This document shows, in pieces, positions 14,349-42,611 of a stretch of DNA of 51,527 bases (positions are counted from its first letter, which is position 1; each line of letters starts with the position of its first letter). Under the pieces are notes generated by a model that made no database searches, had not been told where the DNA came from, and saw only the letters and a list, made by a program, of their open reading frames with translations. A program made the position numbers and the translations under genes. The stretch spans positions 1 through 51,527 of the forward strand of contig JAQVBZ010000009.1 in NCBI GenBank assembly GCA_028690055.1, given 5' to 3'. The DNA is from Minisyncoccota bacterium (lineage in GTDB: Bacteria; Patescibacteriota; Minisyncoccia; JAHIHE01; JAGLIN01).

Positions 14349-15581
14349 TTACTTCCGAGAGAATATATCTTTCAGTGTTTGATAAACGAGTTTCCTGGTT
14401 CCGTCATAGCGCAATATGCCGAAGAAATTCTCCGTAGTAGATTTGTCAGTGCTGCTGTCACATAGAGAATACCAAAAAACGTTCCCTATATGGTTAGGAT
14501 TTTCGGCTTGGAAGGCGAAGATGCTTTTTGCCATCTGGCTTTGAGCCTCCTCGCTCATAAAATCTTTCCCATACGAAAAACCTTCCTCTCCGATGGCGAA
14601 ATCTCTGCCTGGCCCGCCGGTAGGAGCTCCGTATTCGGTAATCCATATCTTTTTTTCTCCGTCATCATTTTCGTTCATAACTTGCCAGACTGATTTGATT
14701 TGCGGCCAACCGTAGTCATAACCGGGGTAAGTATAGGGATGTAATCCTAAAATATCGAAATAATCCTTGGCTCCTTCCCCGTACATCGTTTCGATGAAAC
14801 TCAAGGGAGATATACTTTCATCCTCCTCATCCCCCATATCGGTCAGTCCGGCAGAAACCACTATCGCGCTTGGATTTACTTCTTTGATTCTGGCGTAGGC
14901 GGCTTTGAGCAATTCGGTATAGTCGTATGCGTCCGGTACGGGATACCAATATACTCTATAGTTGGGTTCGTTCCATATTTCCCAATTATCAATCGTCCCT
15001 TTATATCTCCGTGCGACAGTACCGGCGAAATCAGCAAACAGCTCATAGTTTTCAGGTGGACACTGCTTGCCGCTCGGGCAGGAGCCTTCCTGTGCCCACT
15101 GTGGCGCATAGGTTATGATACCGAGTGATTTGATGCCATATTTTTTAGCGGTATTGGCAACGCGATCTGCCCCACCCCAATCATAGCTCTGCTCATTATT
15201 CGGCTGGATTGCCTTCCAGTCCAAGTCCCAGCGCACCCAGGTAACACCCAAATTAGTCAGTTCTTGAAAAAATCTATTCAAATCTTCCTGTTTCCAATAA
15301 ACAAGATTTCCTCCGGCAGCTATTCCAAAACCGTTATCGACGATATTCGCGGTCGTAGTGGTTGATAAGAATTGATCTGCCGCGGCCTCCCCCTCAATAG
15401 TGGAAACAGCCTCATCCGGAGTGCTTCTCGCCCGCGCACCGTGGCAGATTAAACCGTCTGTAGCCGTCTGGTCAGACACTCTCGCTTGTTGTAACAAAAA
15501 AACAGCCGCAATTAAAAAGAGCGGCACAATAAGGAAGCCCATTTTTTTTACTCTATTGTAGTTTGATTCGCGATAAAGCAT
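14349..15581 (-). CDS. Secreted glycoside hydrolase, clan GH-A-like (GH39/GH5-type)
   Basis: 410 aa; N-terminal hydrophobic signal/anchor; 'GVTWVRWDLDWKAIQ', 'NWEIWNEPN' (acid/base E) and 'KIWITEYGAP' (nucleophile E). Confidence 0.8.
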   Translation of the reverse strand: MLYRESNYNRVKKMGFLIVPLFLIAAVFLLQQARVSDQTATDGLICHGARARSTPDEAVSTIEGEAAADQFLSTTTTANIVDNGFGIAAGGNLVYWKQEDLNRFFQELTNLGVTWVRWDLDWKAIQPNNEQSYDWGGADRVANTAKKYGIKSLGIITYAPQWAQEGSCPSGKQCPPENYELFADFAGTVARRYKGTIDNWEIWNEPNYRVYWYPVPDAYDYTELLKAAYARIKEVNPSAIVVSAGLTDMGDEEDESISPLSFIETMYGEGAKDYFDILGLHPYTYPGYDYGWPQIKSVWQVMNENDDGEKKIWITEYGAPTGGPGRDFAIGEEGFSYGKDFMSEEAQSQMAKSIFAFQAENPNHIGNVFWYSLCDSSTDKSTTENFFGILRYDGTRKLVYQTLKDIFSRK

Positions 15582-15797: not shown

Positions 15798-16901
15798 TTA
15801 GTTTTTATCAATCACCACAAAAGTTTTTTGTTTCAGTCCCGCATAAAAGGCCATTGCTTCTATAGCTCCTATCAGAGGTATCGCAAGTAGATAATGAGGC
15901 TTTTTTAATTTTATGATTCCGTAGATATACACCATCCAACAATAAAGTCCTCCGGGTATTGCACACCAGAGAGGTCCCCACATAAACCAGAGAGGGAGGA
16001 ATGCCCAAGATCCAAATATACCTAATGCCCCCATGACCAACCGGGAAGCCACGACAATCTTCATCGTTACCGGACAATATTTCCAGTCGTCCATTATGCC
16101 TTTAAACCACCTACCTCGTTGTTTGAGAAAATCTTTGACGGAATTTGGTGATTTTATACATACTTTTGTGGACGATTGCCAAGTCTTGTAGCCTCTGCGA
16201 ACAAGCTCTGAGGCGAAACGGAAATCTTCGGTCAGAGACCTGTTATCATAACCTATCTCTTTCAGTACCTCTCCTTTGACTGTCAAAAGTTCGCCATGAA
16301 GTCCTATGAGCGGAGTCTTGAGCAATCCCGTGAAAAATCTAAAAATAAAAAGGTCATCAAAGTAGCGAATGGAATCCATCACATAACTGATATCACTCTT
16401 CCCTCTTCTGGGATAAAGTACCGGATTCATAGCGACATAACCTTTTTCGTCATAGCCTGGAATTTCGAAAAGGAATCCGTCATCATGCACCAGATTGTCG
16501 TCATCCACGAAAGTATACCATTTTCTTCCCTCTACCTTGGTTTCTATGAAGAAATTCATTGCCCTTCCTTTTCCGACCAAGTCTCGGCGGTAATCTTTGG
16601 GGACTATCACCAGATTCAGCCCTATAAGCTCGGGAATAAGTTCGCTTCCTTCGTCGACAAGTATCCAGATCGGTACGTTCAAAGTCTTTTTCGTGTGCGC
16701 TATGCACTCGAATAAAGCTTTCTTCACTTTACTGTTCGCTATCGATACTATGACTACTTCCACATTTTCAGCCTTTTCTCTTCCCCTTTTTGGTTTGTAC
16801 ATCTGAGCAATCAGTCCCAAAAGGATGAAGACAGAGAAACAAGTCCAGCAGAAGTAAGCACTGTTTTTCAATAATTCGGACAAATAATACCACGTATTCA
16901 A
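15798..16901 (-). CDS. Membrane glycosyltransferase family 2 (processive type with TED and QRGRW motifs)
   Basis: 367 aa; 'FVDDDNL', 'LTEDFRFASELVRRGYKTW', 'FLKQRGRWFKGIM' followed by TM segments. Confidence 0.85.
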   Translation of the reverse strand: MNTWYYLSELLKNSAYFCWTCFSVFILLGLIAQMYKPKRGREKAENVEVVIVSIANSKVKKALFECIAHTKKTLNVPIWILVDEGSELIPELIGLNLVIVPKDYRRDLVGKGRAMNFFIETKVEGRKWYTFVDDDNLVHDDGFLFEIPGYDEKGYVAMNPVLYPRRGKSDISYVMDSIRYFDDLFIFRFFTGLLKTPLIGLHGELLTVKGEVLKEIGYDNRSLTEDFRFASELVRRGYKTWQSSTKVCIKSPNSVKDFLKQRGRWFKGIMDDWKYCPVTMKIVVASRLVMGALGIFGSWAFLPLWFMWGPLWCAIPGGLYCWMVYIYGIIKLKKPHYLLAIPLIGAIEAMAFYAGLKQKTFVVIDKN

Positions 16902-20452: not shown

Positions 20453-23400
20453 CTATGTTTGCGACTTGTCAACCTCATTTGAGGTGAACATCGGCACTTT
20501 TCTTCTTCTCTTCCTCCAACCATACCCCCAATATCCGAGGCATCCCAGAAGTGTTGCCCCGGAGAAAAACAGTCCTAGATAGAACCATCTCTGTGTAGAA
20601 AATTCTATCACCATTTCCATATCGTAGCTTCCGTCAGGATTCTTCGTACAGGCGGAATTCTCATAGCAGAGCATCTCCGGCTCCGCATACCAGCCATTCA
20701 GGAATCCGTATAATGCAAAATGCTTGTTGTCTTCCACTCTGTCTGGTTTTGCCCATGGTACCCATTTGTCGAGGAAGCCTTGTACTTTCTGGTTATTCAT
20801 CCGCGCTTGCCATTGTGTGTGGTAGCTCTCATTCATCGCGAGGTAAAACGGAGCGGTCGCGCCTTTGATATGGACCAACCTCTTGGTCGGATTGATAAAA
20901 TCAAAAGTGATTGCCACTGGCTTTTTCGTCTGCGTTTCTGCCTTACTAACAAGGTAATAAGTACCGGAAATATCTGGAATTTTGACCAATTTGAAATTAT
21001 CATAGCGATTGATGATACTCATATTACCATTGACCGGTCGTGCGTACACGAACAATGAAACCTGAGTGACGCCGTCGGGTATCGTTATATTTTTTGTGAA
21101 AGTATGCCAACTTTTATCGTTAATCGCGACATCCTCTTTGATTACGGTCTTGTCGACATCGTCAAAGCCGAGATAATAAGACATGTTCGACGCATTCGGA
21201 CTCTGATAGTCGAAACTGAATTGATATGTGTTTCCGCTTGTTACCGGTATTTTGGTCGAGGTACACGCGACATGCCTCGCTGCTTCGAGCTGCAATGACC
21301 GCTCGCCGGCTGTCTTCTCATTTGTATTCAGATTCATAGCGATAATAGGCTTGTTGTCATAATCATAACAGTCTCCTACTTTATCCGTCCAAGTGCCACT
21401 TTCGAAGGAAGGGTTAAGTATGATATTATTAGGGTCGAAACTGTTATCCAGATAAGTAAAAATATTATCATCCTCAGCCAGTGGGGCATCCGCCTTTTCA
21501 AACTTGCCAATGCCGGTTAATTCGATTGCCGCCAATCTCTGCATCTTGGTCAATTTCAGGTTATCATAGTTGTTAACCATACTAGTCTTGTTGTCGTCCG
21601 AATAGGTATACAGATAAAACACAGCTTCATTCACGTCTCTGGGCGCGAATATATATCTGTTATACATTAACCATTTATTGTTGATAATCGGAATCTCGCT
21701 TCTTACTACCGTCCTCTGCTGATCGTTGAAACCAAGATAGTATCCAGCCATTTTAGCATTAGGACTCTGATAATCGAATGACAGCAAATATGCGCTCTTT
21801 TCGTCAATCGGAACGCGGATTGAAGTACAGGCAATATGGGTGGTTGCTTCCATGCGCAACGACTGATTTCCTGCAGTTTTATTTAAGATATCAAGATCCA
21901 TACCCATTATGGAATTCTCATCGTAATAATGGCAATCCCCTATTTCTTCCTGCCATAATCCGTTTTCAAACGAAGCATTAGGAACGACATTATCACTTCC
22001 ATATAGTACTTCGACCGTCTGATTCTCGTCACTCCTGCCCAAGCTCAATTCCTGCCCTGCGACAAGCGGCTGCAATTGCCCATGCGCCAACAGATAATAA
22101 GATTCATTCGGGGCTATGTCTAAATTGACAGTCTGTACTATATTCTTTGCCCCGGCCTTATTGTCAATTTTCTGTCCGTTTAAAAATACAGTCTCTTTTG
22201 ATTCAGTGTATAGGGTTAACTGTTTTTCCTCTAGCAATCCGTATAATCTACTGCCTTTGGTATCCAGATAAAAAACATTCTCCTTGGATGATAAGATCTT
22301 CGGCATTTTCGACGATGCGCCTTCGACGTTGTCGTCGTATATATCCAGCAGATCCGTTACGGGCAGATTCGAGTCCGGTTTTATATTGTTCGTAAAATAG
22401 AAACCCTTTTTTAGTTCTTGGGTGATGAAATCATATTTCTTTTCCAGATTTGCGTATGGATTGAGATGGAACAGCTCATCAAAGACATATATCGGCGGCT
22501 TGTATCCAATATTCTCGTAAACAGTCAGATCCATAGTTCCCATATCTACCTTGTCCAGATAATCAATCTTATCGAAAGCATCTACGTAACCCTGTCTTTC
22601 TCCCGCATAAGGGAATATATTTTCTTCCGCTGCCGGCGCTTCCTTGGGGATAATCAGATATTTGACACTCATCGCGTCCATTATAGCTTTGCCATAAGAG
22701 GATTGGAATATGTTCGCGTACAGATTTGGATCGGTAAAATTGCCCAGCAAGCTCGGGATTTTACTGAGAGCGTCGAATCCTTCCCTGCTACCATAATTAT
22801 GTCTTTGATCGGTAAACAGTTCCCACAATGAGATTTTAGGATGATTCAAGTCATAATACGCCCATTGGGAAGTCAGCGGGGCCCACATAGTCCGGAAGTA
22901 GCCGGATTCATTTGCAATTTTTTCATCCAACAGCTTATATTCTTGCGGTTTTTCCCTGTTGACAGCGAGGGCTCCAATCTCTTTGGTGACGAAAGGTATG
23001 GAATTGAAGAGCAAAACTATAGCAAAGATAGCAAAGACCAGCGTCTGCTGATATTTCCCCTTAATAAAAGACAAGAGATATTTCATACCGAAAGCGAATA
23101 GTCCCAGATAGCCGATTCCTAGCAGCAGATAGAATTTTGATGCCAGGCGAAAGAGAGAGAATCCCGGAAAATAAGTATAGAGCCACAGATATAGACCGCC
23201 GAAAGGTTCCGCGGATTGTTTTGTAAGCAAAATAGCAGTCAGCAATATTATCGCAAAAAATATTATATATTTTTTGTTGTGCTTCGTTTCCCTTTTGTAT
23301 TTCAATAGCGCGCAGAAAGACACCGCGGGTACTAACCAGCTGTGTGTGCTGATCGGAAAAGCGACAGTTTCATCACCGACTATCCCTCCCGACCAACCAC

Positions 23401-24217
23401 TGTCAAAATATGCGAGAGAATATAGAGCTGAAAAGAATTGGTCCCCCCAAAGCCCTCTATTCATTACGCTCAAAAAATTCTGTTTATCGGCAAATATCAC
23501 CGGTAGAAACCAGAATAGGTTTATCAACAGAAATAAACCGATGAGAAACAAAAATTTGATCCTATTCGGCCATAGATTTTTTTTATCAAAAAATACGACG
23601 AAATAAACGAACAAGATAAAAGTAATGATATACATTATCCTGATTTCGTAAAAGCAACCGAGGGAATAGATTAGCACGAAATAAAAAACGTTCTTATATG
23701 AGAAGTTATCAACAAGCTTGATGAAGACTAACAGTATGATGGGTGTCATAGCATTTAGCAGGGCTATGGGCAGATGCGCAGTGTCTCGCAGAAGCAGATA
23801 GGTACTGAAACCGTAAAATAAAGCTCCCAGGAATGATATTTTCCGATCTTTGATGATATGTCTCAATAGATAATACGGTGCCAACACCGAAAGAAACACG
23901 ATCGGCCACATATAAGTCAGCTTGACCGCCAAATCATAATTTCCCATCAACCCCCATATGTATGCGGGAAAGAATGAATTGATTTGGATATTGAAATAAC
24001 CCGCTTCGGCATAGCCCAACCAGGTCGCCTGGCCAAAATTGACCATCTGCGAAACGGCATTATTCGTTAGGTACTGCCAGTCGTTGAAGAATAATATACT
24101 TTTCAAATTGAACCATTCGATATGTGAGACAATCGACAAAATAACCAAGATAATTGGGTAGATATCCATTCTTGAGCGCAATTTTTCGTAGGTTGCTCTT
24201 ACTCTTAACATAAACAT
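20453..24217 (-). CDS. Very large membrane protein: GT-C-like N-terminus plus two tandem carbohydrate-binding-like (jelly-roll) domains
   Basis: 1254 aa; polytopic N-term half; two homologous extracellular domains beginning 'NVVPNASFENGLWQEEIGDCHYYD' and 'NIILNPSFESGTWTDKVGDCYDYD'; C-terminal TM plus KRRRK tail. Confidence 0.7.
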   Translation of the reverse strand: MFMLRVRATYEKLRSRMDIYPIILVILSIVSHIEWFNLKSILFFNDWQYLTNNAVSQMVNFGQATWLGYAEAGYFNIQINSFFPAYIWGLMGNYDLAVKLTYMWPIVFLSVLAPYYLLRHIIKDRKISFLGALFYGFSTYLLLRDTAHLPIALLNAMTPIILLVFIKLVDNFSYKNVFYFVLIYSLGCFYEIRIMYIITFILFVYFVVFFDKKNLWPNRIKFLFLIGLFLLINLFWFLPVIFADKQNFLSVMNRGLWGDQFFSALYSLAYFDSGWSGGIVGDETVAFPISTHSWLVPAVSFCALLKYKRETKHNKKYIIFFAIILLTAILLTKQSAEPFGGLYLWLYTYFPGFSLFRLASKFYLLLGIGYLGLFAFGMKYLLSFIKGKYQQTLVFAIFAIVLLFNSIPFVTKEIGALAVNREKPQEYKLLDEKIANESGYFRTMWAPLTSQWAYYDLNHPKISLWELFTDQRHNYGSREGFDALSKIPSLLGNFTDPNLYANIFQSSYGKAIMDAMSVKYLIIPKEAPAAEENIFPYAGERQGYVDAFDKIDYLDKVDMGTMDLTVYENIGYKPPIYVFDELFHLNPYANLEKKYDFITQELKKGFYFTNNIKPDSNLPVTDLLDIYDDNVEGASSKMPKILSSKENVFYLDTKGSRLYGLLEEKQLTLYTESKETVFLNGQKIDNKAGAKNIVQTVNLDIAPNESYYLLAHGQLQPLVAGQELSLGRSDENQTVEVLYGSDNVVPNASFENGLWQEEIGDCHYYDENSIMGMDLDILNKTAGNQSLRMEATTHIACTSIRVPIDEKSAYLLSFDYQSPNAKMAGYYLGFNDQQRTVVRSEIPIINNKWLMYNRYIFAPRDVNEAVFYLYTYSDDNKTSMVNNYDNLKLTKMQRLAAIELTGIGKFEKADAPLAEDDNIFTYLDNSFDPNNIILNPSFESGTWTDKVGDCYDYDNKPIIAMNLNTNEKTAGERSLQLEAARHVACTSTKIPVTSGNTYQFSFDYQSPNASNMSYYLGFDDVDKTVIKEDVAINDKSWHTFTKNITIPDGVTQVSLFVYARPVNGNMSIINRYDNFKLVKIPDISGTYYLVSKAETQTKKPVAITFDFINPTKRLVHIKGATAPFYLAMNESYHTQWQARMNNQKVQGFLDKWVPWAKPDRVEDNKHFALYGFLNGWYAEPEMLCYENSACTKNPDGSYDMEMVIEFSTQRWFYLGLFFSGATLLGCLGYWGYGWRKRRRKVPMFTSNEVDKSQT

Positions 24218-29686: not shown

Positions 29687-30991
29687 TTAAAAAGCTTCTC
29701 CTAGAAATGGAATGCCCAATCTTTTTCTTTTTGTCTCCCCTTTGAAGAGATTATTCTTCCGTTCGGTCGCCTCCTGTCTGTCTCCCGTGTGCTGAGTTTG
29801 GTTCATGGCCTGAAAGCTGGAGCCTAGAAAAAGAGTATGTTTGCCGTATCTTTTGGCGATGCCGTCCGCGCTGGCAAATATCCGTGAAATCTTCTCCGCA
29901 GTTATCACTTCTCTGAACAGGTCGGTTTGATGACAGACATTTTCCGTTATGTCCGTAAAGATTACTCCCGTGGCACGGAATAATTTGCCCGGAGCAAAAA
30001 CGAGTCCGCAATATTTATCAATCATCTTGATAATCTCAATCGGATTATCAGTAGGGCGGATCAGATTGAATTCAAAGCCTTGATAACGAAAATCTTGTGT
30101 CTTCAAAAAGAAAAAAACCTTTTTGGCCGCCAGATTGTGCCTGCGCAATTTGATACAGGCATTCTCTGTGTTTTTGGAGAGCTGACTCATTGCATATTCT
30201 CGATTATCCGAAGGCGGAGTAAAAGTCTTGGTCTTGCTGATAGACTGATAGCTGTTTTTCTTTTCCGGATCCACTGCATAAACCATTTCCCCTTGCAGCT
30301 CCTGCCAGATTTCCAGATGCGGTTTTGTCAGATTATTCTTGATCCAATCCCGGTCTTTTTTCGCGAACTCCAAAGCTGTCCTGACCCCCTGCTTATTTAG
30401 ATGAGCCGATGTCTGCGCCCCTATCCCCCAGATCTGGTCCACATTGAGCTTGTCCAGATATTTCTCGATGTCGCGCCCGGAAATTATAGTGAGCCCTGAG
30501 GGTTTTTTCCATTTGGAACCGACTTTTGCCAGAACCTTGGTAGGTGCCAATCCTAATGAAAAAGTGAAGCCCAGTTCGCTATCCAGCGTCGCCTTGATTT
30601 CCTTTGCCATTTTCTCGTAGGACATATGCAGAGGGCGCTGGAGGCCGGTAAGGTCGGCGAAACACTCGTCAATACTATATTCTTCCACTGTAGGCGTAAA
30701 ACGTTTTACGATATTAAACATACGCAGAGAATACAGGCTATACGTCTCATAATCCGACGGCAAACAGACGACCTCCGGGCATATCTTCCTGACTTGCCAG
30801 AGGGGCATAGGCCTTCTCACTCCTCGCGCCTTGGCCTCGTAGGTAAGCGAGGAGACGATGCCTCGCTCAAGCCCGGTCACTACCGGTTTCCCCTTGAGTT
30901 CCGGTCTCCGTGCCACTTCACAAGAAGCAAAAAAGCAGTCGCCGTCGACATGGAGAATCGCTTGGGGGAATGAAGATAAGCTGACTGGCAT
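29687..30991 (-). CDS. Y-family DNA polymerase (Pol IV / UmuC-type)
   Basis: 'AILHVDGDCFFASCEVA', 'SLTYEAKARGVRRPMP', 'VEEYSIDECFADLTG', 'GLAPTKVLAKVGS', 'KLNVDQIWGIG'. The ORF track extends to 31066 but the natural start is probably MPVSLSSFPQAILHVDGD (30991). Confidence 0.93.
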   Translation of the reverse strand: MPVSLSSFPQAILHVDGDCFFASCEVARRPELKGKPVVTGLERGIVSSLTYEAKARGVRRPMPLWQVRKICPEVVCLPSDYETYSLYSLRMFNIVKRFTPTVEEYSIDECFADLTGLQRPLHMSYEKMAKEIKATLDSELGFTFSLGLAPTKVLAKVGSKWKKPSGLTIISGRDIEKYLDKLNVDQIWGIGAQTSAHLNKQGVRTALEFAKKDRDWIKNNLTKPHLEIWQELQGEMVYAVDPEKKNSYQSISKTKTFTPPSDNREYAMSQLSKNTENACIKLRRHNLAAKKVFFFLKTQDFRYQGFEFNLIRPTDNPIEIIKMIDKYCGLVFAPGKLFRATGVIFTDITENVCHQTDLFREVITAEKISRIFASADGIAKRYGKHTLFLGSSFQAMNQTQHTGDRQEATERKNNLFKGETKRKRLGIPFLGEAF

Positions 30992-31060
30992 ATTGTATTT
31001 CCATAAATTAGTACTAACACGTAATCGCGAAGGATGAGAGTATAAGGAACGTATGAACAC

Positions 31061-31102
31061 TGTCATTCTGAGGTACCCCGAAGAATCCCGTTAAATCCCG
31101 CA
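31061..31102. repeat. Interspersed repeat family C
   Basis: tgtcattctgaggtaccccgaagaatcccgttaaatcccgca. Confidence 0.85.
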
Positions 31103-31111
31103 TCAAATGGA

Positions 31112-31273
31112 TTTGATTCCCCTCTAGAGAGGGGTGACACCAACATAAGCGAAGCGTTGTTGTTGTGCGGGGTGTGTAGGGAACGATATATTTTTGCATA
31201 ACGCTCTTTACACACCCCTCGCAACTTTACAGCTAAAGCCATAACGGCTCTTCCCCTCTCGAGAGGGTAATCT
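31112..31273. repeat. MITE-like inverted-repeat element family B
   Basis: gattcccctctagagaggggtgacacc ... ggggtgtgt ... acacacccctcgcaac ... cccctctcgagagggtaatc. Confidence 0.85.
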
Positions 31274-31300
31274 AATACCTACAAGAAGACGAACAGAGTC

Positions 31301-31342
31301 ACGTCCCCTCGCCCATTGGGAGAGGGTCAGGGTGAGGGGGAG
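31301..31342. repeat. Interspersed repeat family A
   Basis: acgtcccctcgcccattgggagagggtcagggtgagggggag. Confidence 0.8.
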
Positions 31343-31392
31343 CAATAGTGTATTTAAACCTTAATGAAACCGGCCGGAGACACGGTTCCGGC

Positions 31393-31959
31393 TCAATATT
31401 TCCTTATAACCGCTGTGACCACGGCCGCAATTTTCAATTCCTCCTCGGGGTAGATGTTCTGATATTTCTTGTTGGCCGGTTCCAGATATATCTTGCCGGC
31501 CTTTTTTCTTAAATATTTTATAGTCCATTTATTGTCCACCTCGGCGATAACAATATCACCTTCGGCAGGAGTCGCGCTACGATCTACCAGCACCATATCC
31601 CCCGGCATAATTCCGGCATCCTTCATTGAATCGCCGCTGATCCTGAGCATATAGGTCGCTTCCTTATTCTTAATCAGGAATTCATCCATACTCATAGTAT
31701 CCGATAGTTCTTCTTCAGCCGGCGAAGGAAACCCCGCCTCCACTTGCCCCAGCACTCGGATCTCGCCATATAGATTGCGTGGAATCAGTTTACCCTTCCC
31801 GTCTTTGCTTAAAAATTTCTCATCCTCTAATTTTTTCACCAATTTAAAAACCGCATTCTTGGATTTGAAACCCAACAGAGTCATCATTTCCGCATAACTG
31901 GGCATCCGCCGTTGTTTCTGATAAAACTTGATAATCCGTCTCTTGTGTTTTTCCGTCAT
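31393..31959 (-). CDS. lexA: LexA-like SOS repressor (S24 peptidase)
   Basis: 188 aa; winged-HTH 'RMPSYAEMMTLLGFKSKNAVFKLVKKLED', cleavage site 'VEAGFPSP', catalytic Ser 'ISGDSMKDAGI' and Lys 'KWTIKYLRK'. Confidence 0.9.
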   Translation of the reverse strand: MTEKHKRRIIKFYQKQRRMPSYAEMMTLLGFKSKNAVFKLVKKLEDEKFLSKDGKGKLIPRNLYGEIRVLGQVEAGFPSPAEEELSDTMSMDEFLIKNKEATYMLRISGDSMKDAGIMPGDMVLVDRSATPAEGDIVIAEVDNKWTIKYLRKKAGKIYLEPANKKYQNIYPEEELKIAAVVTAVIRKY

Positions 31960-32201: not shown

Positions 32202-34820
32202 CTACCCATCAATGCCAATGATTGTCTCAAGATTCAAAAGGTCATACTTCCCATCTTTATCTCCGGCTATAGAAAATCCGAAAGAATCGTCGTTCTTAAT
32301 AGACCAATTCCAAACGAGATATCCCCTATAGCCGTTTTTTGAAATGAACCCTGATATATCCTCTATCACATCCGATGGCTCCCGGCCGAAGGGATATAGA
32401 TATTTTGGAATTCCGAATTCACCGACGATAATGGGCTTATCCATCTTGTCAGCATAATCCGCTTGCAGGCTCAGATACTGATTGACTTGTTCGAGATCGC
32501 TATAAAGAATCTCATTTTTCTCATTATAGAGATAGAGATGAACGGAACAGATGTCGATACTTGGGATACCGCAGATGTTCGCTGTTTGTTTCTCCGTAAG
32601 CGATATCGCCTGCTCAGTCCCGGACAATATGAGATGATTTGGGTCAATTTGCCTGATATAGTCCGCCATTTCTGTTGTCCAGTCGACCAGGATATCTTCC
32701 TTGCCTTCGGTTATCCGGGGCTCATTGATGATTTCCCAGCCGAGTATCGATGCCTCTTCGGCATATATATTATGAGTGATACTATTCTCTCGCGAGATTA
32801 CATGGTTGATATAGTTTTTGAATATTTTTTTCGTTTCCTCGTCCGAATAAAATAAATTATCACCGTTTTTAGTTTTTCCTGTCCACACTAAATACTGTTT
32901 TTTGCCTCCAAGGTCCTGCCAATGATTCACGAGCGAAGGTATGAGCTTGATATCATGTTTGCTTGCGGTGAATATTATCAAGTCTGCTTTTTTAAATCTT
33001 TCTTCATTCATAATCCCCGCCTCCGGCTGGAAACCTTCGTCGTATCCGTCTCCGAACATCCAGAAGCGAACGGTATTGACCCCGGCCTCGTGAAGATTTT
33101 GGAAAGTATCATCGATTTCCTCGTCCGTCTTGTATGCCAAGTCATAAGAATTGACTCCCCTGATCACGATCGGTTTTTTGCCTGTCATCATAGTGTTGCC
33201 ATCTCTCGAAACGAATAATTCATTCTTATCTCGAAGCTTATAGATACGCGCGTGTTTACCTTCGTATGATAACTTGTAAAAGCTCAGGAATCTATTATTT
33301 TGCTTGTTTACCAAAGTCGTATACACAGGCTCGCCCACATCACCGTTAGCCATCACTATCCATCTGGCATATTCTTCCGGCTGTGCTATTGCCTCCGACC
33401 ACTCCCTGCTCACTCCTTCGTGAATGAATTGTTCCAAGTGAAAGCCACTCTTGAACAGGACCGGATTGAAAAATGATGTGGAAACTATGACCTTTTCATC
33501 CGATGAGACCTTATTCTCTAATTCCAGAGCTATGTCGTAATGAGCAAACGAGCTTGATCCGACCGTGCCGTCGACTAAAGTGATTATTCCGCTGCGCTGC
33601 ATAGTCATCGTCTGAAATATGGTTATAAGGATTACCGCGATGTAGATTAAGGTCTTCTTGAGATTTGAGATGATGCCGATAAAAAATGCGGCAAAGGGAA
33701 GGGCGAAAATCCCGTATCGCGTATTAAACCACTGGTTGGAAAACTCACCTGAGGGATTCCATCCCAGTTCAGGAAGATTGATGATTGAGAACCCCAGATA
33801 CAAGGCCAATATATTGAATATTATCGGAGAAACGAGCAAAACCAAAACCAAAGCTTTATTGCTGAGGTCGATTCTCAGCTTCTTTTGAAAAAAGAAACTC
33901 ACCAGTCCCGCAAAAGCTAGGACTATGACATATTTTCCTACGACCGCAAGCATATCATACCAATAAGCCAAGGAAGCTATATTCAGATTATTTTTTGTTA
34001 TAAGTCCGGCATTGCTTTCGATGGTCGTTTGCTGCGACTTTGCCGAGTAGGGTCCGATGGCAAAATACAACGGGTCTCCGAAGATGAGCAGATTCCAAAT
34101 GAACCATAATCCCACACCAAAAATGATCGGAAATACAAAGACAGTAAGTTTTCCTACGGTATCTTTCAGCCCCCCCTTGCGATACAGGATTTCATAGTAT
34201 GCAATAAGCAAAAATTCTACTCCGACAACAAACCAGCCGTCATACCTGGCAAGCACCTGCAAAAACCCCAACGCCCCCAGTATGAATAGATACTTGGGGT
34301 CGCCCTTAATAATAAATTTGATAAAGTACAAAACCGACAAAACAAAGAACATGAGATAAAGTGGCTCCGTGAGAGGGGTCGTCTGCAGATATAGCATATT
34401 AAGATTCACTGCAAATATAACTCCCCCCAAGAGCGATGCCGTCTTATCCTTGGTGACGATTTCGATACTTTTGTAGATGCCCCAAACAGAAATCACATAA
34501 GCAATCATCGAAAAGATGCTTCCCGCAAACCCACTGTGCCACGCCCAATCATTCCAAACCAAAGAGAGAGACAACACATGATTCAAAGGAAGCCAAACAC
34601 TCCCCAACTGCGAAATGCCCGGCTCAATATTATCGATGACCAGGCGCGAAATATTCAGATGCGACATCGCATCACCGTATGCCAATGAATAACCCTTGTC
34701 AGACGACCACGCATAAGACAATGCAGAAAGAACGGCCGTAAAAAGCATCAGCAATTTTAGCGACTTTGCGCTCAGGTATATTTTAATTTTTTCAAATATG
34801 GAAGCTTCGAGCATGTACAT
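32202..34820 (-). CDS. Membrane GT-C glycosyltransferase-like protein fused to a GH5-like glycoside hydrolase domain
   Basis: 872 aa; N-term polytopic 'DAMSHLNISRLVIDNIEPGISQLGSVWLPL', 'TPLTEPLYLMF', 'LARYDGWF'; C-term 'PIVIRGVNSYDLAY', 'AGVNTVRFWMFGDG', 'LGWEIINEPR', 'KPIIVGEFGIPK'. Confidence 0.85.
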   Translation of the reverse strand: MYMLEASIFEKIKIYLSAKSLKLLMLFTAVLSALSYAWSSDKGYSLAYGDAMSHLNISRLVIDNIEPGISQLGSVWLPLNHVLSLSLVWNDWAWHSGFAGSIFSMIAYVISVWGIYKSIEIVTKDKTASLLGGVIFAVNLNMLYLQTTPLTEPLYLMFFVLSVLYFIKFIIKGDPKYLFILGALGFLQVLARYDGWFVVGVEFLLIAYYEILYRKGGLKDTVGKLTVFVFPIIFGVGLWFIWNLLIFGDPLYFAIGPYSAKSQQTTIESNAGLITKNNLNIASLAYWYDMLAVVGKYVIVLAFAGLVSFFFQKKLRIDLSNKALVLVLLVSPIIFNILALYLGFSIINLPELGWNPSGEFSNQWFNTRYGIFALPFAAFFIGIISNLKKTLIYIAVILITIFQTMTMQRSGIITLVDGTVGSSSFAHYDIALELENKVSSDEKVIVSTSFFNPVLFKSGFHLEQFIHEGVSREWSEAIAQPEEYARWIVMANGDVGEPVYTTLVNKQNNRFLSFYKLSYEGKHARIYKLRDKNELFVSRDGNTMMTGKKPIVIRGVNSYDLAYKTDEEIDDTFQNLHEAGVNTVRFWMFGDGYDEGFQPEAGIMNEERFKKADLIIFTASKHDIKLIPSLVNHWQDLGGKKQYLVWTGKTKNGDNLFYSDEETKKIFKNYINHVISRENSITHNIYAEEASILGWEIINEPRITEGKEDILVDWTTEMADYIRQIDPNHLILSGTEQAISLTEKQTANICGIPSIDICSVHLYLYNEKNEILYSDLEQVNQYLSLQADYADKMDKPIIVGEFGIPKYLYPFGREPSDVIEDISGFISKNGYRGYLVWNWSIKNDDSFGFSIAGDKDGKYDLLNLETIIGIDG

Positions 34821-34826
34821 TTGAGA

Positions 34827-36995
34827 TTATTTGATTATCGGCAGATGCAATCCGTGCACTGTTTTTTCCCAATAGTGCGGCTTAAAGATTATCTGATACA
34901 GAGCCATCCAGGCGGCGATGCTCATCATCAGCCAATAAATCGGTACGAAAAAAACATACACAACGATGCCCCACTGCTCTCTTTTGTAGCAGCCGATCAT
35001 ATAATAATATAAATAAAGAAAATTACCGAGCACCAAGCAGATAACCGCCAAATAGAAAACTATCGGCGGAAACAGCGAATCGACAGTCGATCCGATTATT
35101 GAACGGAAAGAAAAATAAGTGACGGTGGTCGACCACATAAAAGGATTTATAAAAAGGGATGAGACTTTCCCCCCTACCACCAGCTGAAAAGTGATTATGT
35201 TCGGGTGTTTCCAGTCAGAAATAAACTCTTTCGGATTCCTCATATGGACTAAGTATGTTTGCATATAGCCTTTGATCCAACGCGAGCGCTGCTTCATCCA
35301 ATTCATAAGATTGCTATTCGCCTCTTCCATCGTAGTGGAATCCAAAACGGCCGTATGATAACCCATCTTGCATAAACGCATTCCCAAATCGCAGTCTTCC
35401 GTCACATTAAAAGGATCCCATCCTTTGAGCAGGTGCAAACTATCGGCTTTGAAATGATTAGAAGTGCCTCCCAAGGGAATCGGCGCACCTATCGATTGCA
35501 AGCCGGGCAATATCAGATCAAACCAGAGGGAATATTCGGCTGTAAAAACACGAGTCAATATATTTTGACAAGGATTATAAAAATTCAGCTGAGCCTGCAT
35601 ACAAACGATGTCCTTGTTTTCTTCTTTCTGAAAAGCTGAGAACGCTTTTTTCAGCTGCTTCGGATCTGGGATGTCTTCCGCATCATAAATCACCACATAT
35701 TCCCCCTTGGCATGCGCCAAGCCATAATTACAGGCTTTCGGTTTTGTTTTGGGCGCGCCATGAGGGACTACGATTATATGAAAACAATCCGGCAACTTCA
35801 TTTCCTCCGCCACCCTTATCGTCTCCCTATCGTCATCTTCAAACAAAAGCTGGACCTCGAGCTTGTTTTTGGGCCAATCCATTCCAGAGATTGCCTCAAT
35901 GAATTGAGGAAGAATTTTGCTCTCCTTGTAAAGAGGGCAAAAAATCGTATAAACAGGCAGGTCTTCATCTTTGATGGCCTTCAATTCTTTTTCCGAAATC
36001 CGAATCTCCGGTGTTTTTTGAAAATTTCTGCCGATCAAAAATAAGTTAAACAATAGATCCAAGAAGTAGACGACGGTCAATAATACGACTATCAGGATTA
36101 TCGTAGTTCGCCAATCCAGGATAAAACCGGCTATAATCGTCAATAACAATACCGCTAAGACTATTTTTTGGTGAAGAACGATAGTCTGTAATGCGCTGTG
36201 GCGGTGGCTTATGTCGGTATGAGTGATCAGTTTTTCCCCTTTATAGAATACGCCGTTTCCCATCATTTTATCCTGAGTTTCGTCGCTATACAAAACGGGA
36301 GGCAGTACGGTTAATTTCAGTTTGAACGCTTGCAGCCCAATTTCGAAAACAGATCTAAGGAAATTCAATTTAACATTCCCGCCTTGCCTCTCGAAAAATT
36401 CTATATCGAAACTTCCGATGGTGTAACCGAGATTTCGCGCTTTGTGCAAAAATTGCAGATCAAATGTCCAGGGAGTGGAACTTATCTCTATATACGCGAG
36501 AACTTCCTTTTTAAAGACTTTCAGTCCGGACTGCACGTCACAATCCAAACCGAAGATTACCTTACCGAAAACATAACGGAACATCTTGCTGGCAAATTTC
36601 CTGCTAACGCTTGAATCGTTCCTGATATTCCTATTGCTCACGACGATATCAAATTTTTTCAGCTCCCTACACATCGGCAATATCTCCTCCGGTGGATATT
36701 GCAAATCGGCATCAATCATACAAATGACATCGTACGCTGCGTTTTTAAAACCGATAAGAAGGGACTCGGCCTTTCCTTTTTTGATACGTTTATCTTTTAC
36801 AATCGTTCTTACGGGGAGATAATTACAGAATTTATTTATTTTTCCGACTGTATCATCAGTAGAATTATCGTCAACAAAAATCAGCTCATAAGATATTCTG
36901 GATTTCGCAAAAGAACATTGCACTCTCTTAATGAGTTTTTCTACGTTAGCATCTTCATTGTACGTAGGAATAATTATTGAGACACCTCCCATCAT
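34827..36995 (-). CDS. Bifunctional GT2-GT2 protein: DPM1-like domain plus processive BcsA-like membrane GT2
   Basis: 722 aa; domain 1 'VSIIIPTYNEDANVEKLIKRV', 'MIDADLQYPP'; domain 2 'YTIFCPLYKESKILPQFIEAI', 'IYDAEDIPDP', 'VTEDCDLGMRLCKMGY', 'WMKQRSRWIKGYMQT', C-terminal TMs. Confidence 0.9.
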   Translation of the reverse strand: MMGGVSIIIPTYNEDANVEKLIKRVQCSFAKSRISYELIFVDDNSTDDTVGKINKFCNYLPVRTIVKDKRIKKGKAESLLIGFKNAAYDVICMIDADLQYPPEEILPMCRELKKFDIVVSNRNIRNDSSVSRKFASKMFRYVFGKVIFGLDCDVQSGLKVFKKEVLAYIEISSTPWTFDLQFLHKARNLGYTIGSFDIEFFERQGGNVKLNFLRSVFEIGLQAFKLKLTVLPPVLYSDETQDKMMGNGVFYKGEKLITHTDISHRHSALQTIVLHQKIVLAVLLLTIIAGFILDWRTTIILIVVLLTVVYFLDLLFNLFLIGRNFQKTPEIRISEKELKAIKDEDLPVYTIFCPLYKESKILPQFIEAISGMDWPKNKLEVQLLFEDDDRETIRVAEEMKLPDCFHIIVVPHGAPKTKPKACNYGLAHAKGEYVVIYDAEDIPDPKQLKKAFSAFQKEENKDIVCMQAQLNFYNPCQNILTRVFTAEYSLWFDLILPGLQSIGAPIPLGGTSNHFKADSLHLLKGWDPFNVTEDCDLGMRLCKMGYHTAVLDSTTMEEANSNLMNWMKQRSRWIKGYMQTYLVHMRNPKEFISDWKHPNIITFQLVVGGKVSSLFINPFMWSTTVTYFSFRSIIGSTVDSLFPPIVFYLAVICLVLGNFLYLYYYMIGCYKREQWGIVVYVFFVPIYWLMMSIAAWMALYQIIFKPHYWEKTVHGLHLPIIK

Positions 36996-37508
36996 ATTTT
37001 TTCAATGAGCTTGATGATATTTCAGAAAACAAAAAAACAAAGATTATAGTATTGGCACTTTTACGTCCAGTTCTAATCTTTTCCTTAGGTCTTTCGGAAT
37101 CATCCTGTAGACACCGTTATCCTAATTTCCCTCATCCTTCGTCATTCCCGTCCCCGACTTCTCGGGGATAATCTCTAGCGAGAATGCATCTTTTTATGAT
37201 GGTTCTATCACATGCGCCATTTTCACCTGATACGACTTACGAATCGATACCTTACCACCAGACCAAAATTGCCTGCCAGCCAAATACTGAGTCATACTAC
37301 TTTTTATTATCTCAAATAAAAATACAATGTCAAGAATGTGAGAAATCTCTCGCAATGCAATATTATTCGTTTATAAAATAAAGAACGAGAGAAAATTATT
37401 CCAAAGTACTATTTGAGCCCTGCTAAAAAAGATAAGAGCTGCTTATTTTATAAAAAAGATATATTAAAATCGCAAAATTGAAATTGTTAATGCGATTATT
37501 CACAACAC

Positions 37509-37547: not shown

Positions 37548-40500
37548 TTACCTCAAGACCTCTCCGCTCTGATACCAACTGAATTCCGTATCATTCACGA
37601 CGATGATATAATCCCAATTAAGTTTGTATTTTATAAAGACTTCCGGATTGGGAATGCGTCTTTTAATGTTGTCTTCAGTGAGATAGATGTCCGGAGAATA
37701 TCCGGTTTTAATGAGATGTGAAGTGGGGTAAGATTGCATCTCAAGCTTGGAGATTATCTGTACGTCCTCTGTCTTATCTCCGTATGAATTGAAAATTTCC
37801 GTGGTCGGTATCAATTTCTTGATACCATTTTCTGTATAATATATACCGTCAATTCTCGATTCCTTAAGGAGATTGGCTTGTCGATATTTGTTCACAGTCT
37901 CTTGTGTCACATCAACCACCTCATCCCACTTGAAACCGTAGTCCAGAAATATCTCAGGATTGGGAATGTGACGTCTTACGCCATTTACTACCAAATAAAC
38001 TTTGTAATCCCCTATCGTCCTTATGAGATTATCCTCGTAATCGGGAATCGACTCCAATTGTGGACGAGTCAGCTCTTGGATGTCTGTCCATTTATAGCCC
38101 AGCTGCTCGAATACTTCAGGCGTGCATATCCATTTTTTCTTATATTCCAAAGTGATATAGACTTTAAAAGAGTCGGCAGTCTTTATGAGCGTGCCATTGG
38201 GAAAAAGAGGGACTGAGGAAACTGGGTCGCTACTAACCAGACTTAGTTCGACTATGTTCGAGATTCCGCCCGAGGAAGATTTGAATTTGATATATAACTT
38301 GTCTTGCTCGTCCGCTTTGATATAAGTAGGAGAAGCGCTATAAGTTTCCCATTCTGTATCGGCAAAATCCGCAGTCGAAGACAAAGACATTTGCGAAGCG
38401 TTCAGGACCGAGAAAGAAAGAGTTGCCAGATTATCCACAATCGAGGTCACTTCATATTTTTCTATAGTAGGAATAGTAATAATGCTACTGCTCCCTCCTC
38501 CTCCGCCAGAACTGTAACTGATAGTGTAAGCAGCTGAGGCAACGGCACTGTTGCTAAATCCTGTTTGTGTTGCCAGTGTCTTTACCGTTGTCGTAGATGA
38601 AATGGATAGCGCTGAAGAATAAAGGGTTGATGTAATAGTAGGAGTCGAGCCATCCAAAGTGTAATGGATAGCAGCACCCGTGTCCGTAGTACTTAGGGTA
38701 ACGCTTTGCGCCGAGGAAAAAGTTCCGGTTGCAAGTGAGAAAGTCGGAGGCTTAAGCGCTGCTCTAAAACTCACTACCCAGCCGCCCGAAACGCCGCCTC
38801 CCGTAGTAACGAGCGAAGCGGTAGTGTTTGTCAGTACGGAAGAAGTAATTCGTTCTTCTGCCGGTCGCGCTACGCTGAAACCACAATAATCATTGGGGAG
38901 AAGCGTATAGCCAGGACCTGCGGTACAACCCGATGCTCCCGTATGCCAGGCGGCTAATATCAATTCGTTAGGAATCGCAGTGGTAAATGTCGGCGATGTT
39001 GCCCCCGCTCCGGAAGTGATTACATCCACAGGGGAAAGCGTATCGATGTTGGCATATTCAAGAACGCGAATCGTGCTAAAAGTACCGTTAAATGTTGCGG
39101 TTACGGTATTTAGCGAAGTAGCTCTTGCAAATGCGTAAAACCATTGACCGGAGATGTCTCCACCCACTAGAGTCGAGGATCCGATAGAAGTATATGTATT
39201 TCCCTGCGTATCGGTTATCCCGAATGCTGCCAGATTCTCATGGACTGCCAAGTGTACCGCGATCAAATTGCCTTCTGTATGAGTGACGGTAGGCGCGCTT
39301 AAGCTGGTAGCCGCAGCGTTGTGAGAAGGAGTTACTGCTTGCGTAATCGGACCGTGGATGCCAGATTCCTCTGTCGTAAAGGTAGCAGTAGCGGTAACAT
39401 CGGCACTAAGTGTCACGGTGCAAGTAGATTGTGTACCACTGCAACCATTTGACCAGCCTACAAAAGTAGATCCGGTATCCGGTGTAGCCGTAAGAATAAC
39501 TTGGGTTCCTGCGGTTAGTGTTGCTTCCGTGCCTGTACAGCTTGTGCCACAAGTATTAAAAGTTGTGGCAGGTGCTACAGTTGCGATTGTAACCGTGCCT
39601 GTACCTCCATTGCCTGCTTTACCTAGTGTCAAAGTATTGCCATCCGTCAAAACAGTCCATCCGCGAGAGATAAGATTAGCCGCATGAGATTGTCCTGTGG
39701 CAGAAGAAGGTGCGTTACTAGTCAAATCCAAATAACCTCCTCCCGTATTTTGAGTATCAAAGTCCAATAATATATCATCTACCGCAGCCTCGGCAAAAAG
39801 ATTGTTATGAGCGTCGAGGTGGTATAGACCGATAGAGCTGGAAACATCCAAGCTGGTGAGCCGATTGTTATATGCGTCTACATCTTCAAGTCCCAGATTA
39901 TTGCTGATGTCCAAACTGGTTAGGACATTATCGAAAATATCTATGTAGCCCCTCGTACCGGCTATTGGAAAATTTCCTGAGAAATTAGCGGCTGAATATT
40001 GGTTGGTTTGCGCCCAGACTGATTCTATATTAGTTGAAATCGGATGCAGTGTCCCGGTTTGAGCGTCATTTCTAATCCAAAGTTCTTCTAACGATGGAAA
40101 CTTGGATAAATCGGCAATCGGTGCCGTTAAAGCCATGCTATGAGCGCAGAAGTGCCATAAATAAGGCTCTCCGTTCGTTGGCCATGTAATCGAAGTATAC
40201 TCATTAGCCGTACCACGAAAATCAGCAATATTCGGACTTTCCGAAAGGTCCAGTGTGTCCAGTCCACTACTTTCAATATTCAATCGTGACAGGACAGGAG
40301 TATTAGTGAAGTTAACGGAATTTAAGGAAGGACAATACGAACAATCTAATGTAGTTAAGGCCGTAAAATTGCTGAAGTCTATTGCGACGAGCGGATTATT
40401 CCAAGAAACCCATGCCCATAGGTAGGGCGCCGCATTGCTAAGACCGCTAACCGCAGTCACATTTTGTTGCGCTAAATCAGGAATGACGGTCGTGCCTTCC

Positions 40501-42611
40501 TCGTTATGATTATATCCGATATTGATCGAAGCTATGGCACTCCACGGCGTTACCACTAATGTATTAGTTCTGCTGCTCGCATCCGCGAAAGTTACACTTG
40601 GAGACAGAGAATCAGAAGTCGAGCCGTCGCCGAATTCCCAGTGGACATTCGGATGTCCTATGACTGTAATAATAGGAGCGAAAGACGCGCCGCTAGTGGT
40701 AAAAGTAATTTTGGCACTGGCGTCTATGACATAATCCGCATTCGTTATGACGCTATCGGTCATACCGCTCATAGTCGCAACCGCCTTAAGAGTCTGTGAG
40801 CTGGCAACGGTGATAGCAGCAGCATAAGGATAAGTTGCCCCCGTGCAATTCCCCGCTCCGTCGGTAGTGGGATCGGATCCATCGGTCGTGTAGCAAATAG
40901 TGGCACCCGGTACAGTGCTAGTTAAGGTCACATCCTGAGAAGCGGCGTATGTGCCAGCGATAGGAGAGAAAACTGGAGTAACCGCCCCTCTAAAACTCAC
41001 TACCCAATTGTTCCATGCAGCACCACCTACGTGCCCCAAAGAAACCGTCGCATTAGATTGGAGAGAAGAAACAATCCTCTGTTGTACTGGCCGCCCGATA
41101 TTGGTGCTACAATAGTCATTTGCAGTCAGGGTATAATCGGTATCTGCTGTACAGGAAGTAAGGCTCGTTCCATTGTCGAACTGTGCGTGCCATCCGGACA
41201 GAATAAGCTCGTTGGATGTGGCCGTCGAGAAAGCCGGCGAAGTCGCTCCTGCTCCTGCGACATACACATCTAGGGGAGAACTCGTATCAATGCCGGAATA
41301 TTCCAGGGCGCGGATATTATAATTGATTACACTAGTATTACTGAAAGTCGCAGTCACGATATTGCTTCCGGTAGTTCCGGCAAAAGTATAAAACCATTGA
41401 CCGTAAAGACTACTGGTAGGCGCGACCGCCGTTCCGATAGGCGTATAAGTATTTGTCTGTGTGTCGCTGACAGTAATCGTGCCCGGATTGAGATTAGTCA
41501 CCACGAATACTGCTATAAGATTTCCCGTCGTGTGAGGTACGGAAGGAGTAGACACAGACGAACCCGGGCCACTTTGTTGTGAAACACTAACATTGGTTAT
41601 CGGACCTCGGATACCGCTAATCACATATGCGGCACTTGCCATATAAGAGTCGGTACTACCGCTTTTAGTTGCGACCGCCTTGATATTTTTGGAACTGGAA
41701 ACACTGATTGCGCCGGAATAAGTCAGAGCGTCTCCTAAACAAATACCCGCTCCGTCGGTAGTAGGATCGGATCCATCGGTCGTGTAACAAATAGTGGCAC
41801 CAGCAGTCGTACTGCCAAGAGTCACAGACTGAGAGGTTGCGTATGTACCGGCGGGAACGGAAAAAGTGGGAGTAGCCACATCTCTGGCGGCAATCTTGAA
41901 ACTCACAGTCCAGCCTCCATTGATGCTTCCACCCGTATTACCGATTGATGACAGAGTATCGGTTTGGATAGATGAAACAATTCTCTGCTCTACCGGCCTT
42001 GCCACAACAGATGAACCGCAACGGTCATTTGCAAGAAGGGTATAGCCATTTCCCGCTACACATGAGCTTACAAAGCTATTTGCTTCCCAACCGGCGAGTA
42101 TAAGCTCGTCGGGAGAAGTTGTTGTAAAAAGTGGCGAAACAGATTCAAATCCCGAAACGGAAATATCTACCGGAGAAGCTCCTGCAATATTATCATATTC
42201 CAATACGCGAATCGTTCTTCCTGTTGCCGCTTGAGAAAAACTGGCAGTAACAATATTCTCTCCCGTAGCATTTGCAAAAGCATAGAACCATTGACCCGTA
42301 GCCCCTCCTACCGAAAGAGCGTACGCGGTGCTGGCTGCAGTATAAGTATTGGCTCGTGTATCGGTAACGGTAATAGTCCCGGGGTCTATGGCAACCACGA
42401 ATACCGCAATCAAATTTCCCGATGTATGCGTTGCTGTCGGAGCAGCTATACTAGTGGCAGCCGCCGACTGGTAGACGGTATCGGAATATGAAACCAAATT
42501 AGGCGTAGCCATAGCCGATCTTGTGCTGAACAAATATACGATTGCAAAAACCAAACAAACCAATACCACAAAAACAGTCTTGAGATTAGTCTTACGCATA
42601 AAAGTAATCAT
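37548..42611 (-). CDS. Giant modular secreted surface protein (three repeated beta modules, chitobiase/beta-hexosaminidase-C-like domains, LRR-like region, bacterial beta-repeat, four C-terminal ~52-aa repeats)
   Basis: 1687 aa; N-terminal signal; 'ATICYTTDGSDPTTDGAG' (CHB_HEX_C-like) twice plus a variant; 'LTTLDCSYCPSLNSVNFTNTP..LDLSES' LRR-like; 'TLTAGTQVILTATPDTGSTFVGWSNGCSGTQSTCTVTLSADVTATATF'. Confidence 0.85.
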   Translation of the reverse strand: MITFMRKTNLKTVFVVLVCLVFAIVYLFSTRSAMATPNLVSYSDTVYQSAAATSIAAPTATHTSGNLIAVFVVAIDPGTITVTDTRANTYTAASTAYALSVGGATGQWFYAFANATGENIVTASFSQAATGRTIRVLEYDNIAGASPVDISVSGFESVSPLFTTTSPDELILAGWEANSFVSSCVAGNGYTLLANDRCGSSVVARPVEQRIVSSIQTDTLSSIGNTGGSINGGWTVSFKIAARDVATPTFSVPAGTYATSQSVTLGSTTAGATICYTTDGSDPTTDGAGICLGDALTYSGAISVSSSKNIKAVATKSGSTDSYMASAAYVISGIRGPITNVSVSQQSGPGSSVSTPSVPHTTGNLIAVFVVTNLNPGTITVSDTQTNTYTPIGTAVAPTSSLYGQWFYTFAGTTGSNIVTATFSNTSVINYNIRALEYSGIDTSSPLDVYVAGAGATSPAFSTATSNELILSGWHAQFDNGTSLTSCTADTDYTLTANDYCSTNIGRPVQQRIVSSLQSNATVSLGHVGGAAWNNWVVSFRGAVTPVFSPIAGTYAASQDVTLTSTVPGATICYTTDGSDPTTDGAGNCTGATYPYAAAITVASSQTLKAVATMSGMTDSVITNADYVIDASAKITFTTSGASFAPIITVIGHPNVHWEFGDGSTSDSLSPSVTFADASSRTNTLVVTPWSAIASINIGYNHNEEGTTVIPDLAQQNVTAVSGLSNAAPYLWAWVSWNNPLVAIDFSNFTALTTLDCSYCPSLNSVNFTNTPVLSRLNIESSGLDTLDLSESPNIADFRGTANEYTSITWPTNGEPYLWHFCAHSMALTAPIADLSKFPSLEELWIRNDAQTGTLHPISTNIESVWAQTNQYSAANFSGNFPIAGTRGYIDIFDNVLTSLDISNNLGLEDVDAYNNRLTSLDVSSSIGLYHLDAHNNLFAEAAVDDILLDFDTQNTGGGYLDLTSNAPSSATGQSHAANLISRGWTVLTDGNTLTLGKAGNGGTGTVTIATVAPATTFNTCGTSCTGTEATLTAGTQVILTATPDTGSTFVGWSNGCSGTQSTCTVTLSADVTATATFTTEESGIHGPITQAVTPSHNAAATSLSAPTVTHTEGNLIAVHLAVHENLAAFGITDTQGNTYTSIGSSTLVGGDISGQWFYAFARATSLNTVTATFNGTFSTIRVLEYANIDTLSPVDVITSGAGATSPTFTTAIPNELILAAWHTGASGCTAGPGYTLLPNDYCGFSVARPAEERITSSVLTNTTASLVTTGGGVSGGWVVSFRAALKPPTFSLATGTFSSAQSVTLSTTDTGAAIHYTLDGSTPTITSTLYSSALSISSTTTVKTLATQTGFSNSAVASAAYTISYSSGGGGGSSSIITIPTIEKYEVTSIVDNLATLSFSVLNASQMSLSSTADFADTEWETYSASPTYIKADEQDKLYIKFKSSSGGISNIVELSLVSSDPVSSVPLFPNGTLIKTADSFKVYITLEYKKKWICTPEVFEQLGYKWTDIQELTRPQLESIPDYEDNLIRTIGDYKVYLVVNGVRRHIPNPEIFLDYGFKWDEVVDVTQETVNKYRQANLLKESRIDGIYYTENGIKKLIPTTEIFNSYGDKTEDVQIISKLEMQSYPTSHLIKTGYSPDIYLTEDNIKRRIPNPEVFIKYKLNWDYIIVVNDTEFSWYQSGEVLR

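Follow-up and report, generated by a model that had tools for sequence, protein, structure and literature searches.

Results

A membrane glycosyltransferase and a hydrolase in one reading frame

The window, by which we mean the whole 51,527-nucleotide stretch of Patescibacteria DNA analysed here, contains a gene (P0001) that is read from an ATG start at 34820 down to 32202 with no internal stop, and that encodes a GT-C membrane domain followed by a GH5 domain (Table 1). Reading the same segment on the plus strand is ruled out, as it is rich in stops. A preliminary description of this DNA had reported a single uninterrupted frame of 872 residues, which is indeed present, though it mentioned neither the strand, nor the neighbouring synthase gene, nor the unfused equivalents found in other genomes. 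It had also placed the GT-C part at roughly residues 1–550; a GT-C N-terminus is there, but the membrane part ends near residue 410, a soluble exoplasmic segment occupies about 411–530, and GH5 starts at about 531.

Table 1. Features of the locus and of one decayed copy, with the evidence for each; positions are those of the window unless a locus name precedes them.
Feature	Position	Strand	Basis
GT-C::GH5 fusion protein P0001, 872 aa	32202..34820	-	ORF, Pfam, AlphaFold, Foldseek, full-length fused homologues
GT-C membrane domain, residues 1-410, 11 predicted TM helices, N-in/C-out	33591..34820	-	AlphaFold, hydropathy, Foldseek
Asp50 codon, first external loop, motif Y-x-D-A/S-x-x-H	34671..34673	-	34-sequence alignment A2, fused copies
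GH5 (mannanase-type) domain, residues 531-872 and stop	32202..33230	-	PF00150, phmmer, profile search, Foldseek
Glu700 codon, predicted acid/base, NEP motif	32721..32723	-	Aligned with 1rh9; conserved
Glu801 codon, predicted nucleophile, GEFG motif	32418..32420	-	Aligned with 1rh9; conserved
P0002, 722 aa, two-domain GT2::GT2	34827..36995	-	Pfam, DPMS/BcsA matches, motifs
Best promoter-like match ahead of P0002, TTGACA-16-GATAAT preceded by TG	37306..37333	-	Consensus scan only, not evidence of function
Genes for a LexA-like S24 peptidase and a UmuC/DinB-type polymerase, immediately following the cassette	29687-31959	-	Pfam
P0003, 1687-aa secreted repeat protein (CHB_HEX_C, Fn3-assoc, LRR, PKD-like), next gene upstream of the cassette	37548-42611	-	Pfam
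Decayed GT-C::GH5 copy (G803b), genome G803	L134:4131-6491	-	NEP to NSP, nucleophile region missing

The preliminary description had suggested AlphaFold modelling and Foldseek comparison as a check, and these recover both parts of the protein. The model, built from a 34-row alignment, has a mean pLDDT of 82.7 and a pTM of 0.79. It is confident over the membrane part (pLDDT mostly 80–98 in the helices) and less so over the GH5 part, where several loops fall below 50 because only four alignment rows cover that domain. When the model is compared to the PDB, GH5 mannanases rank first (E about 2e-15) and GT-C enzymes next.

Within the membrane part, Pfam identifies PMT_2 at residues 96–235 (E 1.6e-8; 35.3 bits, cut-off 26.1), and this broad family is the only sequence family to match when membership of CAZy GT39 is considered. 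A search of PDB sequences with a GT-C profile gave no match, and the evidence for the fold is therefore taken from the model, for which the Foldseek matches include the C-mannosyltransferase DPY19 (7zli), the STT3 subunit of oligosaccharyltransferase (7oci is also listed) and ArnT (5f15). As modelled, residues 1–410 are a polytopic fold of the GT-C superfamily. Counting helices from the model, the hydropathy and the K/R-rich cytoplasmic loops gives a topology in which both active sites of P0001 are predicted to face outside. Asp50, conserved in at least 90% of alignment A2 and kept in all fused copies, is probably the catalytic-type acidic residue. The sugar specificity of the domain is not readable from sequence, and its donor would be of the polyprenyl-phosphate sugar type.

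The C-terminal part is matched by the Cellulase/GH5 family PF00150 at residues 549–842 (E 8.9e-16; 58.6 bits against a cut-off of 23.5). Among solved structures, phmmer finds the tomato enzyme 1rh9 (E 1.7e-37) and 8gf3 (E 8.1e-37), as well as the soybean enzyme 9m20, which a four-member profile reaches at E 2.9e-64. The motifs INEP (698–701) and VGEFG (799–803), earlier proposed as GH5 catalytic signatures, agree with these Pfam and PDB matches, and E700 and E801 are kept in all intact copies, fused and split. The site residues of the window copy (Arg585, Asn699, Glu700, His761, Tyr763, Glu801 and Trp837) are the same in relatives except for one member, G710, in which the Trp motif is altered. 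Judged by homology over the (beta/alpha)8 barrel, the glutamate pair with NEP on strand 4 and EFG on strand 7, and these conserved residues, the C-terminus belongs to GH5, and its nearest PDB matches suggest that it is closest to the subfamily-7 (GH5_7) endo-β-mannanases. By the same nearest relatives β-mannan is the predicted substrate, and the model predicts that the domain lies outside the membrane.

The partner gene and its surroundings

Just 6 nt upstream of the fusion gene lies P0002, whose product consists of two glycosyltransferase domains. The first (residues about 1–230) resembles polyprenyl-phosphate-mannose synthases, that is, dolichol-phosphate-mannose synthase (DPMS; 5mlz, E 1.9e-20), and carries the DADLQ-PP motif as DADLQYPPE, which supports DPMS-like membership, with mannose as the predicted sugar. 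The second (about 290–722) is like the processive GT2 enzymes that make cellulose or PNAG (BcsA 7lby, E 3.1e-15), and its EDDD, YDAED, TED and QRSRW correspond to the D/DxD/TED/QxxRW series when aligned over eight homologues. Genes for a LexA-like and a UmuC-like protein come after the cassette in the window, and the flanks vary among the other genomes. On the other side, the secreted protein P0003 is a possible candidate for a glycan acceptor; used as a query it found no match in the relatives. The genome to which the window belongs also encodes the GDP-mannose enzyme GMP/PMI.

Elsewhere in the window, a gene for a PslG-like secreted hydrolase (14349-15581, minus strand; 4zn2, E 8e-22) and one for a shortened GT2 synthase (15798-16901, minus strand), separated by 216 nt, make a second synthase/hydrolase pair. 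A further gene (20453-24217, minus strand) encodes a membrane protein of 1254 aa that carries a CBM_4_9 domain, a layout that we take to be like that of the large AftD-like enzymes combining GT-C and carbohydrate-binding modules.

Recurrence of the fusion

We screened about 1,030 distinct Patescibacteria genomes (G000–G1033) and found the fusion in eight: that of the window (G000) and seven more (G531, G969, G1008, G1006, G803, G710 and G301, the gene in the last being cut by two contig ends). The six full-length fused homologues have 51, 49, 47, 41, 39 and 33% identity to P0001 over most of the chain. P0001 is a genuine GT-C::GH5 fusion, as independent genomes holding full-length fused homologues exclude a chance or assembly join. 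At this frequency it is not the common architecture that the preliminary description had allowed it might be. A limited literature search, which is weak evidence of absence, found no description of a GT-C/GH5 fusion or of any Patescibacteria GT/GH fusion, and within that search the architecture looks undescribed.

None of 13 searched genomes from the same family as the window genome has the fusion, which suggests an accessory and probably laterally moving trait. A phage collection held no match to the GH5 domain, and in a plasmid collection the two halves were matched only separately, no record covering 80% of the fusion. In a tree, four fused proteins cluster by their GH5 domains against nine others (support 93/87, from few rows). 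The fused GT-C domains do not form one clade, that of G710 being placed elsewhere (AU p 0.011), and the fusion may therefore have arisen repeatedly or been recombined, with the caveat of long branches in the trees.

The pairing with a synthase recurs along with the fusion. A synthase gene lies directly upstream in the window and at six other loci (L069, L070, L072, L132, L136 and L137). It is of the P0002 type in G531, G969 and G1008, has the second domain only in G710, and is seen in G301 and G1006 as fragments, at contig ends or at breaks in the frame. The only carrier with no processive GT2 directly upstream is the large cluster of G803, where the synthase lies farther away. Outside Patescibacteria, the actinobacterium Nonomuraea has an overlapping GT2b/GT-C pair with 44% identity in GT2b and 27% in GT-C.

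Unfused relatives and alternative partners

Most relatives have a separate GT-C protein of about 520–560 aa, commonly preceded by a second GT-C (GTC2) and clustered with GT2b and a Wzx/GT4 protein. In 18 loci the gene directly downstream of the GT-C, on the same strand, at a spacing of -50 to +26 nt and in most cases overlapping it, encodes a 330–440-aa protein that we term TIM408. It has no glycosidase match in Pfam. Its model (m5ba3dee44bb8; pLDDT 91.8) shows a membrane helix at the N-terminus and a barrel of the clan GH-A type, with structural matches to GH113 mannanase, PslG, GH10 and GH5 enzymes. Two glutamates, E167, which follows strand 4, and E265, located where strand 7 ends, do not vary among the 18 sequences. 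On its modelled (beta/alpha)8 barrel and acidic pair TIM408 would belong to clan GH-A, with hydrolase activity as a prediction. Close homology to the GH5 domain was considered and not upheld (hhalign profile comparison, probability 6%), and since there is no convincing profile similarity we use "equivalent" for gene position and fold class only. In this sense the fusion substitutes for a free-standing, membrane-anchored protein of clan GH-A fold that is encoded immediately after the GT-C in most relatives; no TIM408 gene was found in the window's own genome.

One cluster, in G803, holds several of these forms at once: an intact GT-C::GH5, a split version in which a GT-C gene is followed by an overlapping GH5 gene, the decayed GT-C::GH5 (G803b), and TIM408. 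Fused and split forms side by side indicate that fusion and operon are alternative ways to pair a GT-C and a barrel hydrolase that faces outward, and since one of the two G803 copies is without the GH5 active site the hydrolase is not indispensable everywhere. Another arrangement is found in G120, where a GH81 gene lies 251 nt downstream of the GT-C instead.

Further variants were seen. In G876 (L135:6349-9570, plus strand) GTC2 and GTC are themselves fused into 1073 aa, followed by an overlapping TIM408. In L016, L017 and L077 the GT2b/GT-C pair is followed by a different downstream partner of 1490–1590 aa, which in L016 and L017 has a sugar-dehydrogenase-like (GSDH) domain and PA14 and in L077 starts similarly. 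A GT2 synthase at L002:13567-16242 (plus strand) has a C-terminal barrel-like domain, GH26-like by eye and with a 27% match to the product of the next gene, and is possibly another Patescibacteria fusion of synthase and hydrolase.

Discussion

A proposed role in making a surface glycan

Our preferred reading, to which we assign a probability of roughly 0.6, is that P0001 and P0002 form a compact cassette of two genes and four domains for a surface glycan, probably containing mannose, in which GH5 processes the emerging chain. The first GT2 of P0002 would make a polyprenyl-phosphate hexose, probably mannose, on the inner face, and the second would polymerise and extrude a beta-glycan. The GT-C of P0001 would then add lipid-linked sugar on the outer face, by branching, capping or attachment, while the mannan-type chain, as it emerges, would be cut, released or transglycosylated by the tethered GH5. 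Direct support exists for the domains, the predicted fold and topology, the conservation of key residues, the adjacency of the two genes, and the fused and split alternatives; we infer which sugar is used, the substrate and linkage, enzymatic activity, the sequence of the steps and coupling in cis. Four hints speak for mannose, none of them decisive: the DPMS-like domain, the Dol-P-Man-type (DPY19) fold, the mannanase matches of GH5, and GMP/PMI.

The preliminary description had proposed an enzyme that transfers and then trims or re-ligates glycan. A GT-C fold and a GH5 with both glutamates, in one chain and with both sites predicted on the same outer face, make such a mechanism plausible. However, as a processive GT2 gene lies upstream in nearly all carriers, the product of the synthase is at least as likely to be the GH5 substrate as that of the GT-C. 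Building and trimming of the surface sugar coat are probably coupled in the carriers, because seven related genomes carry the same fusion, in most cases beside a polysaccharide synthase gene.

We hold more tentatively, and on balance doubt, a broader proposal: a transferable two-protein machine of Patescibacteria whose GT-C and GH5, acting in cis, would set chain length or graft the chain onto lipid or protein, and which would be part of a wider undescribed GT2/GT-C/clan-GH-A cluster with TIM408 as a new hydrolase family.

Other roles can be considered for the same genes. The GT-C might mannosylate secreted proteins such as P0003 and the GH5 edit those glycans, leaving the synthase to another task; protein-modifying DPY19 and STT3 are among the fold matches and P0003 is the next gene upstream, but we think this unlikely, as the pairing with a synthase is kept across families and extends to Actinomycetota, whereas P0003 lacks a match in relatives. 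Somewhat less probable still is a nutritional role, in which GH5 digests external mannan as food and the GT-C is simply its anchor. Though the closest solved relatives of the GH5 domain are degradative endo-mannanases, the partner gene encodes a synthase, the surrounding ORFs that were compared with Pfam include neither a sugar transporter nor catabolic genes, and the conserved GT-C residues imply more than an anchor. It is equally improbable that the GH5 domain is catalytically inactive and merely binds or guides the chain: an inactive copy does exist in G803b, which is without both catalytic glutamates, but both these and the substrate-site residues are kept in all intact copies at about 30–51% identity. 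Finally, a join of two genes by assembly or annotation, suggested only by draft origin (54 contigs, 4.11% contamination), is refuted by six other genomes with full-length fused homologues and by one more in which the gene is cut by a contig end.

Comparison with known systems

GT::GH fusions and synthase/hydrolase operons are already known, and the present fusion is a sensible extension of that principle. A close likeness is to the BcsA-like "Orphan" and NdvB GH17::GT2 proteins of pseudomonads, which also combine a glycan-making membrane domain with an exoplasmic retaining hydrolase/transglycosylase barrel in one chain and are proposed to process the emerging glucan (PMC10237404). There, however, a GH17 acting on beta-1,3-glucan is N-terminal to a GT2 synthase, whereas in P0001 the GH5 is C-terminal to a GT-C and the GT2 is separate. 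A similar picture emerges from Arabidopsis, where the activity of AtMAN2 and AtMAN5, membrane-anchored GH5_7 mannanases, is required for glucomannan synthesis, so that a membrane-tethered GH5_7 is needed alongside CslA synthases for normal mannan synthesis (PMC13181414); these differ in being separate proteins of the plant endomembrane system with an N-terminal TM and no GT-C, in an unrelated lineage. GH5_7 enzymes are also capable of transglycosylation (PMC3526467), and hydrolase genes are commonly present in exopolysaccharide clusters (PMC9075953).

In the bacterial exopolysaccharide operons of BcsZ, AlgL, PgaB, PelA, and PslG for Psl, the co-encoded hydrolase or lyase acts on the polymer. 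PslG-like and clan GH-A barrels recur in the present loci too, but in those operons the hydrolase is not fused to a GT-C, and the work is mainly in outer-membrane bacteria. P0001 shares its fold and external-loop Asp, and probably its donor type, with the polyprenyl-phosphate-sugar GT-Cs ArnT, PMT and DPY19, though there is no GH domain in any solved match listed.

Significance

Patescibacteria are small, often host-attached cells whose surface polysaccharides are poorly defined biochemically. The fused builder and cutter, together with the adjacent synthase gene, point to a pathway that can be tested and to the mannan type as its likely sugar, and bring to light a recurrent cluster with an unannotated protein of clan GH-A fold. 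That a single lineage has both the fused and the split form is Rosetta-stone evidence for hydrolase and glycosyltransferase acting together, which is relevant to the question of why glycan synthesis systems retain a hydrolase.
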